Source: Ignavibacteria bacterium
Lineage (GTDB): Bacteria > Bacteroidota > Ignavibacteria > Ignavibacteriales > Ignavibacteriaceae
Reading direction: 5' to 3'
DNA: 40,182 bases
Assembly: GCA_021286645.1 (NCBI GenBank)
Contig: JAJTBZ010000051.1
Location: 1-40,182 of the forward strand
In this document: piece by piece, positions 18,167-36,940 of the stretch
Layout: every line of letters begins with the position of its first letter
Position numbering within the stretch: the first letter of the stretch is position 1
Made by a program: the position numbers and the translations under genes
The notes under the pieces: model-generated
What the model saw: only the letters and a program-made list of their open reading frames with translations
What the model was told of the DNA's origin: nothing
The model's database searches: none

Positions 18167-18332
18167 TACAGCACAGAAGAGCCGGAAAACGATACGGGAA
18201 CCTCTTAAACAATGATTCGATAGTAACTACGGTGCAAATTTACTGTATAATAGCGTGTGGAACAAGTATTGCGAATTTTGTAAATTAGATGTATGGATAT
18301 TATTCAATCCGGCACTTTTTATAAGGAATATC

Positions 18333-19022
18333 ATGGCACGTGTATTAATAGTAGATGATGAACCCAACATGCGCTTAGGGTTACAGGATAACCTTGATTT
18401 CGAAGGCTATGAAGTAGATACTGCCGAAAACGGAAGGGAAGGCCTGGAAAAAATTCTTAAAAACGGGTACGATATAATTCTTCTTGATGTTATGATGCCT
18501 GAATTGCCGGGTTTTGAAGTATGTAAAAAAGCGCGAAGCGCGGGGATAAATACTCCAATTATTTTTCTTACCGCTAAAGGAGAGGAAATAGACCGTGTTT
18601 TAGGGCTTGAGTTAGGGGCCGATGATTATATTACCAAACCTTTCAGCGTTCGGGAACTGCTTGCCCGAATAAAAGCTATATTACGCCGTGCGGAGAGTTC
18701 TGCTCCCGAAGCCACGGGTGCCGGGGTACTGATCGGGAAGATGCAGGTCGATTTCAGGCTGCTCCGGGCAACGGTAAAAGGAAAGCCCGTTACCTTATCC
18801 CATAAAGAATTCGAGATTCTGGAGTACCTGTATAAACATCGGAATGGAATAGTGAGCAGGGATGATTTATTGACGAATATCTGGGGTTACGATGAAAACC
18901 CTTCAACCAGAACTGTCGATAATTTTATTGTTAAACTGCGTCAGAAACTTGAAAAGGACGCGAATCATCCTCAGGTAATAATTACCGTCCATGGAACAGG
19001 GTATAAGCTGATTACTGAATAA
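18333..19022 (+). CDS. OmpR/PhoB-family response regulator
   Basis: A 229-residue two-domain regulator. The receiver domain has acidic residues D8-D9, phosphoacceptor D52 (LLDVMMP), switch Thr80 (FLTAKG) and Lys102 (YITKPF). Residues about 130-229 form the winged-helix OmpR-type DNA-binding domain, with LSHKEFEILEYL, GIVSRDDLL, RTVDNFIVKLRQKLE and the closing TVHGTGYKLI. The ATG at 18333 has AAGGA upstream and starts the canonical ARVLIVDDEPN strand; the longer in-frame reading from 18255 adds a non-conserved leader. No histidine kinase gene is adjacent, so it is an orphan regulator here, although two kinases lie elsewhere in the window. A terminator follows its stop codon. Confidence 0.92.
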   Translation: MARVLIVDDEPNMRLGLQDNLDFEGYEVDTAENGREGLEKILKNGYDIILLDVMMPELPGFEVCKKARSAGINTPIIFLTAKGEEIDRVLGLELGADDYITKPFSVRELLARIKAILRRAESSAPEATGAGVLIGKMQVDFRLLRATVKGKPVTLSHKEFEILEYLYKHRNGIVSRDDLLTNIWGYDENPSTRTVDNFIVKLRQKLEKDANHPQVIITVHGTGYKLITE

Positions 19023-27959: not shown

Positions 27960-30900
27960 CTACTTGGAACAGTGTACCGGCAGGCTGACAATAAAAGTGG
28001 AGCCCTTGCCCGGCTCGCTTTCAACCGATATAAAGCCACCTAATTTCTCAACGAATCGTTTGGTAAGCGTTAGGCCAAGACCTGTTCCTTCAAAACCTCT
28101 GCCAATTCCTTCACTGGCCTGCCTGAATTCTTCAAAAATGATTCCCTGATCTTGCCGGGAGATACCGATTCCCGTATCACTCACTTTAAATGTGAAAAAA
28201 TCGTTGTTATCAAATTGTTCCCGGGCTATCGAGACAGTAATACCACCCGACTCTGTAAACTTGATAGCATTGTTGATGAGATTATAGAAAACCTCACGAA
28301 ACATTTTTTCATCGCATTCAATTCCGGTATCGCCGAAATGAGAAGTTAAAGAAATCTGTAATTTTTTCTTTTCGGCAGCAGAACTAAACAGGTTACAAAT
28401 ATCGCGCAGCAGGGCATGCGCGTCAAAATGAGTTATATACAAATCATGCTTGCCTGCTTCGATGCGTGAAAGATCGAGAATATGGTTCAGGGTCTCCATT
28501 AATCGTTTGCCGCTTCGGAATATTAAGCCCGAAATTCGCTGTAGTTCTGCATCAGCGGCAATTTCATGTAATATTTCAGAATAACCAAGAATTCCTATCA
28601 TCGGTGTGCGGAGTTCATGACTCATGTTGGCGAGGAAGCTTGATTTTAGCCGGTTGGCTTCTTCCGCTTTGTTCTTGGCCACTATTAATTCCTGTTCCAT
28701 ATATTTTCTATCGGTAATATCCAGGAATGTAAATAATAAGTGTTGTACACCTTTAATCATTATCATGTCAGCCGAGAATAACCCGGTAAGCACTTCGCCA
28801 TTTCTGGAGCGGAAATTCATTTCAAGGTTTCGAACAGTATTTGCTTCGCGGAGTTTTTGTAAAAACAGATCGCGTTCTGCATTATTGAGCCAAATTTGCA
28901 AATCAGTACTGGTTCTACCAATAACTTCGTCGCGTGAGTATTGACTTAAATTAAGAAACTCTTCGTTAACCAGAGTATATCTTCCTTCGGAAGCAGTAGT
29001 AATGCCAATAGCAACGGCGCTATTATTAAAGGCTTTTGCAAAGCGTTCTTCACTTTCACGAATAGCCTGTTCGGCGATTCTCTTATCGGTAATATCAGAA
29101 TTCGTTCCGCTTAACAGAACCGGAGTGCCATTGGAATCGCGCTCAACAACATTACCACGAGAAAGAATCCAGCGCCAGGTGCCATTTTTGGCAAGCATTC
29201 TAATTTCAATTTCGTAACCCCGTTCTGAATTGAGAAATGTTGGTTTCATTGCTTCAATCATGGGCTGCCAGTCATCGGGATGGCAAAGATTTTTCCACGT
29301 GGGTAATATCATCGGGAATTCGTTAGGCATATAGCCGAGTGACTCATACCAGCGGGGGCTAAAATACATTTGCGAAGTGACAAGATTCCATTCCCATATA
29401 CAATCACTGGTTGCCGCAATCGCGTACGATAATCTGCGCTCATTTGTACGTAACCGCTCTTCAACCAATTTCCGTTCGGTAATGTCCCGGGCAATTAATA
29501 AGCAGTAACAATCTTTGCCGAATTCTACGTAGGAAAGCATGATCTCAACCGGAAAAATCTTACCTGTTCTTGATTTATGTGAAGACTCGATGCGACGTGA
29601 TTTGCTTATTTTAAGCGCGTCCCAAAGGTTTTTCCAATCCAGCTTCGTTATATTGGGGTTAATGTCTGTAATTGAAAGCTTGAGTAAATCGTTTTTCGAA
29701 TAACCTAAAAGTCTGCCAGCCGACTGGCTGACACGAAGAATTTTGCCAATATTATTTACGAGAAACAGTGCATCAACCGAGTTCTCGATACCCAATTGAT
29801 AAATGAGCAATTCAATTTCGGATTCTTTTCTTTCTGTTACATCGCGTACAGTGCCAATGAGCGTAACTATTTTGCCATCCCGGCGTTCGAATGCCTTTTC
29901 TTTACCATAAAACCAGCGCCACGTATGATCTTTAGCCAATAGCCGGTATTCGAATTCAAGAACGTAATTGTCCTGAAGATCCTGAACTTTTGGGATATAA
30001 TTATCGAACTGTGAAATATCATCAGGGTGCAATAACTGTCTTATAGCGTTCATTGAGTCGGCAGGCAGCTCACCCTTTTTATATCCCAAAAGAGTACCGA
30101 TATCTTTATTGATGTATAAATTCGTATCGGAGTGGAGATCATAGATATATATTATATCGGGCGACTGAGCCGTAAGATTGTAAACAAACAGATTCCTTTC
30201 GATAAGAGTTTGTTCACTCTGTTTTTGTTGCGTAATGTCCGTATGTGTCCCGATAATTTTTCGGGTAACCAGTCCTGATGCATCGCGTAAAGCCTGCCCG
30301 CGGGTAAGTATCCATACCCAGCCACCTGTTGCATGGCGCATCCGGAAGCTGTCTTCATAGAGTTTCCCTCCCGGGCTTTCTATATATTGATGAAAATAGA
30401 AGGAACACCTTTGCAGATCATCGGGATGCAGCAGGGAATACCAGGCCTCTTTAATATTAGCAGCACCGCTCATATCAAAATCATCAATCGAGCGGCCGAG
30501 AATGGAGAAGTACTCCGGACTGCACCATAGAAAATTTGTATCAGCATTAAACTCCCATGCACCGGTATTAGAAAGAGTAATAAAAGATTTATATCGCTCG
30601 GTAAGGTCGGCAATATCTTTGTTTTTCTGACGTAACGAAGCTTCAGTAAGCAACCTCTCCTGCATTTCATTTTTTGCTTTTTTAATATGATCTGCAAGAT
30701 AATCGAAGGTTATTTTCAATATCATAGTTACAAATGTAGTAACAAGAACAGAAAGAGAGATTAATACCAGGGGAGGTAAAGGGAAATAAACATGGAGATG
30801 AAAACCCGAAAGGAGAATGTAGCAAAAAATTGAGTTTACAATAACTATCAATGCGGCGGTGACAATCAGACCGACCTGGCCTATTAATAAGCCGCTAAAG

Positions 30901-34105: not shown

Positions 34106-34513
34106 ATGCCACTATTTACATGGACTGAAAACCTGAGTGTTAAAGTAAAGGAACTCGATGATCAACACAAGAAGTTAATCAGTCTTGTTAATGATCTGCA
34201 TGACGCGATGAGAGCGGGGCAGGGGAAAGCTGCTCTGGGTGCTATATTAGACGAATTAATCAAGTATACCGAGTACCATTTTTCTGCTGAAGAAGCGATA
34301 ATGAGCAAATACGGTTACGAAGAATTTACCGGTCATAAAGCGCTTCATACCAAGCTAACTACTCAGGTACATGATCTGAAATCTAAATATGATGCCGGTA
34401 ATCTATCTATTACACTTGATGTGATGAACTTCCTGAAAGATTGGCTAAATAATCATATCCTTGATACAGATAAAAGATATTCAGCTTTTCTGAATGGAAA
34501 AGGTGTGAAATAA
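34106..34513 (+). CDS. Bacteriohemerythrin (first of a tandem pair)
   Basis: A 135-residue single-domain hemerythrin with all expected di-iron ligands: H21 in LDDQHKKL, H58 and E62 in YHFSAEE, H77 and H81 in GHKALH, H117 in LNNHILDTD and D122. It reversibly binds oxygen in a four-helix bundle and may act in oxygen storage, delivery or sensing. AAGGAG lies 5 bases before the ATG. The second hemerythrin starts 17 bases after its stop, so they are very likely co-transcribed. The two are the same length with identical ligand positions, indicating a tandem duplication. Confidence 0.93.
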   Translation: MPLFTWTENLSVKVKELDDQHKKLISLVNDLHDAMRAGQGKAALGAILDELIKYTEYHFSAEEAIMSKYGYEEFTGHKALHTKLTTQVHDLKSKYDAGNLSITLDVMNFLKDWLNNHILDTDKRYSAFLNGKGVK

Positions 34514-34530: not shown

Positions 34531-34938
34531 TTGCCGTTTATAACATGGGACTCCGGTTTAAGTGTCGGTGTCGAAGAAATTGACAGGCAACATAAAAAAT
34601 TGTTCGATTTGGTGAATGATTTATATGATGCTATGCGTGAAGGAAAAGGCAATGAAATTGTTGGAACAGTTCTTCGGGAATTGCATGTGTACACAGTTAC
34701 ACATTTTCAATTCGAGGAGAAGTTGTTCCGGCAAACCGGATACCCCGGCTCGGTAAATCATAAAATGGAACACGATGCGTTAATACAACGTGTTGATGAA
34801 TTGCAGTCGAAGTTTGACTCAGGAAAAGTTGCCCTGCATTTAGAGGTGCTAAATTTATTGAAGGACTGGTTGAACCAGCATATCCGGAATTCAGACAGAG
34901 CATATTCAGTTCATCTGAATTCACGCGGAATTTATTAA
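34531..34938 (+). CDS. Bacteriohemerythrin (second of a tandem pair, TTG start)
   Basis: A 135-residue hemerythrin with ligands at the same positions as the first copy: H21, H58, E62, H77, H81, H117 and D122, in contexts DRQHKKL, THFQFEE, NHKMEHD and LNQHIRNSD. The start is TTG, supported by a strong AAAGGAGG site at 34518-34525 and by alignment with the first copy's N-terminus. The second-copy sequence has diverged in the loop before H77 (GYPGSVNH) relative to GYEEFTGH, so the copies are not recent duplicates. Its stop codon sits at the base of a long hairpin shared with the convergent kinase gene. Confidence 0.92.
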   Translation: MPFITWDSGLSVGVEEIDRQHKKLFDLVNDLYDAMREGKGNEIVGTVLRELHVYTVTHFQFEEKLFRQTGYPGSVNHKMEHDALIQRVDELQSKFDSGKVALHLEVLNLLKDWLNQHIRNSDRAYSVHLNSRGIY

Positions 34939-34976
34939 CACAAACGCGTCAGTGTTATTGCTGACGCGTTTGTGTT
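34937..34976. terminator. 16-bp perfect hairpin covering the ends of two convergent genes
   Basis: The perfect 16-bp arms at 34937-34952 and 34961-34976 surround an 8-base loop. The hemerythrin stop (34936-34938) abuts the left arm and the kinase stop (34955-34957 on the minus strand) lies in the loop. No long T-run is present on either side. Confidence 0.75.
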
Positions 34977-36940
34977 GTATGTAAAGGTATATAACCGGAA
35001 GTCAGAGGCAGAATTACCGTAAATGTACTGCCATTGTTTGGATGTGAAAGCACGTTTATACTTCCTCCGTGCAACTCTACAAATTGCTTTGTAAGAATAA
35101 GTCCCAAACCGGTTCCGTTTTCAAGCTCGGTGCCATTCCTGAGCACACTTTCCTGAATTTTAAATAACATATCCTGCTGCTCTGTTGTCATGCCAATGCC
35201 ATTGTCAGTAACAATTATTTGATGCCCAACCGCAGTAAGTTGATAGGATATACGTATATAGCCCCCGCGCGGAGTAAACTTAATTGCATTGGAAAGAAGG
35301 TTGCTGATAACAGAAGAGAACAAGGCTGTATCCAGCATGAGTATTATATCCCGGGGAATGTCAAATTGCAATTGCAGCATTTTTTGTTCCGACATGGAAG
35401 CAAGTGTATGTACTTGCTTTTGAATAAGATCGTATAATACTACACGTTCAGGACTAAATTCAATTTTGTCCGTTTGCAACTTTGCCCACATGAGCAGATT
35501 ATCGAGCAAGCCAAAGACATGCTTTATTGACTTATTTACTTGCGAGGCAATGCTTTTGATTGTTTCAGGCGGTAATTTCTCAAAATCTTCGAGTATATAC
35601 TCGGTAAAACCAATAAGAGTCTGAAATGGTGTTCGCAAGTCCTGAGCTATAATGGAGAAGAATTTATCTTTATTAAAATTGAGTTCTTTTAAGTCGGCTT
35701 CAGAGAGTTGCAATTTCTCATTAAGCAGGTGCAATTGTGCAGATTGCTCTTCAAGTTTTTGCTGTTGCAATTCAAGCCGTACGATGTATTCCTGTTGATG
35801 AGCTTCAAGCCGCTTTTTATCGGTTATCTCCTTAATTGCAACGGCGAATTCATCGGGTACTGCCAAACGGTTGGGTACAGCGGAAAAAGTGAGCTCGAAC
35901 CAACGCTCCGTATTCTTTTTATCAATTACCTGCCGCTCTAAAGTTAAATGAGTGCTGTGAATTTTACCGAACAGGTTTTCTTCGCAGGTACTCTGAATAC
36001 CGGGGAAACAGGATGAGAGAGTTGTTTCATGAACCAAAGCAATGCCATACAGATCCTGTATGAGACCAAAGGCATTTTGATTATACGCCTGGATACGGCA
36101 GAACCGATCGATAAGAACGTAGCTAAGTGAGGGCGTATTAAATAATGCAGAAAACTTCGCTTCGGTTTGCCTTGCAATTGATTCAACGCGAATTCGCTCA
36201 GTCATATCTTCAATGAAGAACTCGATTCCATCGGTACCGTTGTTGATTAAACTGCCCGAAAGGCAGATATCGAGTTCATTCCCCTCAAAATCAAGCGCGG
36301 TGGCAGAGAAGCCGCGAATAACGCCTTCCCTGCTCATAATGGCGAGGAGTTTTTCCTGCTGATCGGGGAAGGGACAAATAATAGGCAGAATGGAATTACC
36401 CTCAAGGCAGTTGTCCGGGCCCGGCTTAAACAGTTTTACAAAATTATCGTTCGCGAAATTATACACGTAATTGGAATTACAGGTTACTACTGCTAATGGC
36501 GAGTATTCGATGATGGATTTAAAGCGGGCTTCGTTTTGACGTATCTGCCGCTCCATAGCGGATTTGTGCATAGTCATGCGAATATTCGCGTGTAGCTCGC
36601 GTTCATTTACCGGTTTTAAAATATATCCATAGGGTTCGGTAAAAGTAGCGCGGTTTATTTTTTGTTCATCGCTAAATGAAGTGAGGTAAATTACCGGGAT
36701 ATCGTATTTTTCCGTAATGATGCGTGCCGTATCAATACCATCGAGTTCACCATCGAGAACTATATCCATCAGAACAACATCAACCGAGTGTGTTGTAAGG
36801 AATTCAAGAGCGGCTTCGCCAGAAGCAAATGAAGCTGCAACGCTGTATTTGAGGTCTTTTAAAAGCTTTTTAATATACGCGGCAGTCACTAATTCATCTT
36901 CAACGACGAGAATATGCAGCGAGTCGTTTACTGTATCCAT
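34955..36940 (-). CDS. REC-PAS-PAS-kinase hybrid with Gln in place of phosphoacceptor His
   Basis: A 661-residue soluble protein. The N-terminal receiver domain has E14-D15, phosphoacceptor D59 (LMDIVLDGE), T87 and K109 (ILKPV), so it should be phosphorylatable. Two PAS domains follow at about 135-255 and 260-385, then a coiled coil (LELQQQKLEEQSAQLHLLNE). The DHp helix reads FFSIIAQDLRTPF at 427-439, where active kinases of this type have FSIIAHDLR; residue 433, encoded at 35642-35644, is Gln. The ATPase domain keeps its N-box LLSNAIKF, DNGIGM and GTGLGL motifs. So ATP binding looks intact, but the site that receives the phosphate is gone. It is convergent with the hemerythrin pair. It may act as a phosphatase, a phosphate acceptor or an allosteric partner of another kinase. 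Confidence 0.9.
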   Translation of the reverse strand: MDTVNDSLHILVVEDELVTAAYIKKLLKDLKYSVAASFASGEAALEFLTTHSVDVVLMDIVLDGELDGIDTARIITEKYDIPVIYLTSFSDEQKINRATFTEPYGYILKPVNERELHANIRMTMHKSAMERQIRQNEARFKSIIEYSPLAVVTCNSNYVYNFANDNFVKLFKPGPDNCLEGNSILPIICPFPDQQEKLLAIMSREGVIRGFSATALDFEGNELDICLSGSLINNGTDGIEFFIEDMTERIRVESIARQTEAKFSALFNTPSLSYVLIDRFCRIQAYNQNAFGLIQDLYGIALVHETTLSSCFPGIQSTCEENLFGKIHSTHLTLERQVIDKKNTERWFELTFSAVPNRLAVPDEFAVAIKEITDKKRLEAHQQEYIVRLELQQQKLEEQSAQLHLLNEKLQLSEADLKELNFNKDKFFSIIAQDLRTPFQTLIGFTEYILEDFEKLPPETIKSIASQVNKSIKHVFGLLDNLLMWAKLQTDKIEFSPERVVLYDLIQKQVHTLASMSEQKMLQLQFDIPRDIILMLDTALFSSVISNLLSNAIKFTPRGGYIRISYQLTAVGHQIIVTDNGIGMTTEQQDMLFKIQESVLRNGTELENGTGLGLILTKQFVELHGGSINVLSHPNNGSTFTVILPLTSGYIPLHTTQTRQQ

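Follow-up and report, generated by a model that had tools for sequence, protein, structure and literature searches.

Domains of the HisKA family that lack the phosphoacceptor histidine account for ~0.9% of those surveyed (722 of 76,471), and the survey treats their general role as unsettled (PMC12632262). One such protein, DivL, is described as docking to phosphorylated DivK (DivK~P) (PMC4211667). Kinases deprived of the acceptor by mutation may still receive phosphate on their receivers: an H497Q substitution was introduced into MA4377 with the aim of preventing autophosphorylation, and the REC domains of the constructs were still phosphorylated in trans (PMC11784639), while LvrB H161A, a receiver-histidine kinase (Rec-HK) without its acceptor, is reported to take phosphate from LvrA (PMC5863495). 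Here we describe a Rec-HK with a natural loss of the histidine. Its gene lies on the minus strand at 34955-36940 of contig JAJTBZ010000051.1 (Ignavibacteria bacterium, assembly GCA_021286645.1), the 40,182-nucleotide stretch that was analyzed and is called the window below.

The H-box of the encoded 661-amino acid protein reads FSIIAQDLRTPF, and codon 433 is CAG (35644-35642, minus strand), placing a glutamine at the HisKA phosphoacceptor position; the phosphoacceptor histidine of an active HisKA kinase is not there. This replacement had been proposed in an earlier note on this DNA and is borne out by translation of the open reading frame (ORF) and by alignment. A residue check likewise agrees with that note on the preservation of the receiver residues E14, D15, D59, T87 and K109 and of the ATP-binding boxes; D434, T437, N547, N551, D579, G581, G583, G609, G611 and G613 are all kept. 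The protein has the HisKA/HATPase core of a pseudo-histidine kinase, with the acceptor missing and the remainder intact, and it shares with LvrB-type Rec-HKs an N-terminal REC and a C-terminal DHp-CA (both by Pfam), with the REC phosphorylation residues intact. The interpretation that we prefer, and on which our confidence is evenly balanced, is that the Gln433 protein is a receiver-gated pseudo-histidine kinase that would signal by contact or by dephosphorylating a partner.

The layout runs REC-PAS-PAS-coil-DHp-CA, as drawn from the ORF, its translation and Pfam. The receiver domain (Response_reg, PF00072, 79.5 bits) spans residues 10-120 (36581-36913, minus strand, as are all features of this gene) and includes D59, its predicted phosphoacceptor by translation and alignment (codon at 36764-36766). 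Two PAS-like stretches follow, the first at residues 149-248 (36197-36496), which matches PAS_9 with an E-value of 8.5e-4 and 20.0 bits, below the 27-bit cut-off, and the second at residues 274-385 (35786-36121), which has no Pfam match at 1e-3, is 29% identical to the orthologue of the sister species, and is assigned from position and layout. A coil or signalling helix (residues 386-423; 35672-35785) is 66% identical to the sister orthologue and is modelled as helical from residue 406. It leads into the DHp domain (HisKA, PF00512; residues 424-490; 35471-35671), which scores 29.7 bits, above the gathering cut-off of 26.9, and the CA domain (HATPase_c, PF02518, 83.1 bits; residues 540-647; 35000-35323) retains its N, G1 and G2 boxes. 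The earlier note had called the protein a hybrid kinase. REC, DHp and CA are indeed all present; because the receiver is N-terminal rather than trailing, the layout is that of a Rec-HK (“hybrid response regulator”) and not of a classical hybrid kinase.

How cleanly the acceptor has changed is seen from an alignment of 44 kinases with FSII-type H-boxes, drawn from the same genome and from family members, in which 39 carry His, four Gln and one Gly. In the 39 His-bearing kinases, 41 columns reach a conservation of 85% or more, and the Gln433 protein keeps 40 of them, the sole miss being His433 itself. The rows were chosen by an H-box pattern with the acceptor free and its neighbours fixed, which makes His 39 of 39 by definition and means that six of the 41 columns (428, 430, 434, 435, 438 and 439) are partly built in by the choice; the other 35 include the ATP boxes. 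With the frame open, these 40 positions kept and the DHp domain the most alike between the two orthologues, decay as a pseudogene was rejected as a simple reading, in line with the earlier note, although a very recent loss would fit as well. Identity to the sister orthologue is 68% for DHp, 66% for the coil, 62% for REC and 55% for CA, falling to 32 and 29% for the PAS-like stretches.

Glutamine at this position is rare. Among 93 distinct DHp domains of the same genome, 89 have His, and Gln (the protein studied here), Gly, Asn and Ser occur once each; the loci of this census were drawn from 146 places, with 150 of 227 candidates scored, some receiver-only places left out, and 12 rows that were gapped at the acceptor set aside. 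Four non-His domains in 93 exceed the 0.9% expectation (binomial p = 0.012), a comparison to which we give no weight because degenerate domains enter our census more readily than they do the published survey. Beyond this genome the counts of non-His domains are lower bounds, being based on a strict pattern with the CBN codon class left out. In 21 related genomes (this one included), 152 instances of the strict H-box pattern have His and two have Gln, here and in G021. The Gln H-box pattern is found in three of 80 genomes of the family, all in kinases, and a looser version in five of 164 genomes of the order, four of them in kinases; across 395 genomes of the phylum, the strict Gln pattern occurs in two, and in a kinase only in the genome studied here. 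Pattern matches in G458 and G161 were dropped as chance matches once their reading frames had been read. Nine strict-pattern matches for other non-His residues were also inspected, of which eight were dropped and only the Gly kinase of the same genome fits the kinase profile.

The three other non-His proteins of this genome differ in character. The Gly kinase (L030, contig C22, codon near 54545) has a TPR-like N-terminal part, as judged by eye, and adjoins a His-bearing paralogue of similar layout (L003), compared with which its branch in the kinase tree is three times longer (2.34 vs. 0.78). The kinase-like protein with Asn at the acceptor (L098, contig C94, near 42552) has, by eye, no recognizable G1 or G2 box and three trailing receiver-like stretches; it may be a scaffold of receivers. 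In the third (L069, contig C81, near 7491), a kinase, Ser aligns at the acceptor, and the ATP domain looks intact by eye.

A protein search of the 80 family genomes at E < 1e-90 matches two: this genome and G057. The set has no further genome of the genus, and the G057 orthologue is 47% identical to the Gln433 protein, and 53% over DHp-CA. The reading frame in G057 is interrupted at a run of N, which we do not count as gene decay. As here, the gene points away from a murI-like gene (a likeness judged by eye), with two further ORFs longer than 100 amino acids between them in G057. A tree of the 44 kinases, built with a bootstrap that had yet to converge and with a long branch for the Gly kinase, joins the Gln433 protein to the His-bearing protein of G057 (support 100/95) and then to that of G009, also His-bearing (98/89). 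Its nearest relatives among the 44 are this orthologue and a kinase of another genus, not a paralogue from its own genome, and three independent changes are required to account for the five non-His rows, each of them forced by well-supported branches. Because the tree nests the Gln433 protein among His-bearing relatives, the change from His to Gln is most likely derived, having arisen after the split from the sister species.

An indication that a kinase with Gln at the acceptor can persist comes from elsewhere in the family. Three species of one other genus carry a sensor kinase with the H-box FS[IV]IAQDLK and the ATP boxes kept (L161 in G014, contig C31; L162 in G021, contig C171; L163 in G013, contig C40). 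The G014 and G021 proteins, found by the Gln pattern, are 93% identical; the G013 protein, at 62%, was added by protein search. Gln is present in all three genomes in which this kinase was found, the codon being CAA in two of them and CAG in the third, and the ratio of nonsynonymous to synonymous substitution rates (dN/dS) over DHp-CA is 0.17 for G014/G021 by NG86 (0.21 by YN00) and 0.09 for G013/G014, the latter rough at a dS of 2. These values indicate that the kinase is conserved under purifying selection in the three species; with Gln conserved under two codons and dN/dS low, such a kinase can therefore be maintained. It is a less perfect match than the Gln433 protein, with four departures across the 41 conserved columns (and six in the G013 protein), and differs from it also in that no receiver is seen in frame; by eye, a long N-terminal sensor part is followed by a PAS-like stretch. 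Shared ancestry of the two Gln kinases was rejected, given the three changes in the tree and the DHp-CA identity of the Gln433 protein, which is 36% to the other Gln kinase vs. 53% to the His-bearing orthologue. Any claim that the Gln433 protein is itself maintained would rest on analogy with this independent kinase. We would go further only tentatively, in proposing that His-to-Gln is a selected state that has arisen at least twice in the family, and that here it made a kinase with a leading receiver into a conformational switch that binds ATP and is gated by the receiver, with a pseudokinase output that may steer kinases or regulators without giving phosphate.

Several observations weigh against reading the Gln433 protein as a maintained pseudokinase. 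The one same-genus orthologue found, that of the sister species, has the histidine (FSIIAHDLR) and so does not share the loss. The earlier note had proposed to check whether Gln is conserved in homologues and took His throughout the genus as a refuting sign, suggestive of a sequencing error or strain mutation; the sign is there, and with n = 1 and only 53% identity over DHp-CA the refutation is partial. No second genome with Gln in this gene was found by pattern searches of the family, order and phylum, by the protein search of the family or by the GTDB scan. That scan, made with the receiver/PAS alignment, gave 41 loci with one evident orthologue (the sister contig) and, using two peptide patterns only, is weak for absence; a plasmid search (2890 records, all below 60% identity) gave no orthologue among the matches listed. 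The Gln433 branch is also longer than that of its sister (0.89 vs. 0.52 changes per column), and relative-rate counts with G009 as outgroup are 25 vs. 16, which is not significant (p = 0.16). The count of the Gln433 protein is the higher with 34 of 38 His-bearing outgroups, which are not independent of one another. The longer branch and the lean in rate could reflect relaxed constraint, and accelerated evolution after the loss was set aside as a lean only. Moreover, no kinase or response regulator gene adjoins the Gln433 gene among the flanking genes matched by Pfam, and the survey of His-less domains argues against phosphatase activity as the general cause of losing the histidine (PMC12632262).

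The intact remainder of the protein would fit either a very recent loss or maintenance. If the protein has been unconstrained since the loss, a rough Poisson bound puts the loss within about the last tenth of the branch (8% with 40 sites, ~10% without the six columns partly built in); dN/dS against the sister orthologue gave no value, as synonymous sites are saturated. Recent loss accounts for the intact remainder equally well. Recent inactivation, whether as a kinase-dead allele, a strain variant in the sampled population or an assembly error, is the main alternative, one that we hold with distinctly less than even confidence. It has in its favour that a single base change separates Gln from either His codon and the loss in this gene is seen in one genome only, along with the histidine of the sister orthologue and a remainder that looks as expected just after a single change, whereas the stable Gln kinase shared by three other members of the family speaks against it, as do a genome that is 99.02% complete with 0.05% estimated contamination and the small target that one of 93 acceptor codons would offer to a consensus error falling exactly there. 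A protein retaining only the phosphatase function, which would not phosphorylate but, with its CA domain occupied by nucleotide, would use D434 and T437 to dephosphorylate a response regulator, seems unlikely. Both of these residues, part of the HisKA E/DxxT/N motif, are kept, and the histidine is reported not to be essential for HisKA phosphatase activity (PMC12632262); the sister orthologue, however, has Ser at the T437 position, so the position is not fixed, and DivL is described as lacking both activities (PMC4211667).

Less probable still is that the Gln433 protein is the trans-acting half of a heterodimer, its CA domain phosphorylating the histidine of a partner kinase. Trans complementation is known between split CheA mutants, and the ATP boxes are intact here. 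ChrS, a pseudokinase defective in its CA domain, is reported to pair with HrrS as a heterodimer (PMC9491836), and in two of the three genomes with the independent Gln kinase a His-bearing hybrid kinase with an altered G1 box is encoded by the next long ORF on its strand. On the other hand, the Gln433 gene has no adjoining partner, its nearest relatives among the 44 kinases of the tree are not paralogues of its own genome, and for LvrB, phosphorylation is believed to take place in cis (PMC13269768). The neighbouring hybrid kinases, in G014 and G021 (L165:10165-12792 and L166:5660-8287), carry their His in the motif HDILNT; with the Gln kinase they look partly complementary, and a G1 box altered in this way may be usual among kinases of that type. 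In G013, kinases flank the Gln kinase on the other strand. We consider it very improbable that another acceptor nearby takes over, for example H474 of the second DHp helix, the only His within residues 424-490. In the sister orthologue this residue is Arg, but HK853, which uses the canonical His, likewise carries a His at the matching position of structure 4jas.

AlphaFold2, run on DHp-CA with a seven-row alignment, gave a well-formed model with a predicted local distance difference test (pLDDT) score of 80.5, low in the ATP-lid region, and a continuous helix from residue 406 into DHp; the two PAS-like stretches lie between this helix and REC. The best Foldseek matches are HK853 complexes, while DivL (4q20_B) has the highest TM-score by query (0.81) among the 50 matches listed, which also include RetS and LvrB (8vc9; TM-scores of 0.56-0.57 by query, which is low). 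The model has an ordinary kinase-core fold and is silent on activity.

Under our preferred reading as a receiver-gated pseudo-histidine kinase, the change from His to Gln after the split from the sister species would have turned a Rec-HK into a pseudo-histidine kinase, in which autophosphorylation at the normal site is not expected. Nor would the canonical switching-on of Rec-HK autokinase activity by REC phosphorylation be expected, because the acceptor is missing. By analogy with the acceptor-less constructs described above, D59 probably takes phosphate from another kinase, and its phosphorylation, together with the PAS-like stretches, would form the input. The signal would pass along the conserved coil to the DHp-CA core, which presumably binds ATP and could change shape without being able to pass phosphate on. 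The output that we favour would need no phosphate donation and might consist of docking to or sequestering a response regulator, or of holding a partner kinase in a given state; dephosphorylation of a regulator would be our second choice and a trans-kinase role our third. That the protein serves as a non-phosphorylating partner is plausible and not established.

As phosphodonor, the earlier note had suggested the PAS kinase at 27960. We found nothing that ties the two together: a gap of 3.6 kb separates them, in which lie two genes of the LptF/LptG family and two for hemerythrins, and at least 89 DHp domains in the genome bear the His. The hemerythrin-domain genes (Pfam) are in tandem (34106-34513 and 34531-34938) and converge on the kinase gene, making a link with oxygen possible. 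By Pfam, the other flanking genes encode the two LptF/LptG-family permeases and one member of the Asp/Glu racemase family, for which “murI” is our working label. At 18255-19022 of the window is an OmpR-type response regulator (REC and Trans_reg_C, by profile match), and neither of its neighbouring long ORFs matches a kinase.

A natural His-less protein with an intact receiver and a change at one of 41 conserved positions could make the effect of losing phosphotransfer cleanly testable, and the Gln lineage of three species offers a second, independent setting in which to ask whether selection acts on Gln itself. In the literature searched (the titles and beginnings of abstracts that were listed, not a full survey), no natural Rec-HK with Gln in place of His was found. 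The closest described systems each share part of its make-up. LvrB, like the Gln433 protein, is a Rec-HK with an N-terminal REC, a C-terminal DHp-CA and an intact REC phosphorylation site (PMC13269768, PMC5863495), but it has His161 and is described with no PAS domain between REC and the helix, where the Gln433 protein has two PAS-like stretches in addition to Gln at the acceptor. CCNA_03265 of Caulobacter is reported as a hybrid kinase that lacks the conserved His and keeps the REC Asp, although its authors say that the His may lie nearby (PMC11481889). DivL of Caulobacter is a pseudokinase that also has a HisKA/HATPase core without the acceptor, with Tyr in place of His; its description includes PAS domains and no receiver, all but one of its alphaproteobacterial homologues are reported to keep the Tyr, and its binding of an ATP analogue is weak (PMC4211667). 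The Gln433 protein, in contrast, has Gln rather than Tyr, does not share it with the sister species, and has ATP boxes that are intact in sequence. His-less HisKA proteins and Rec-HKs are both known kinds, and the Gln433 protein joins the two.
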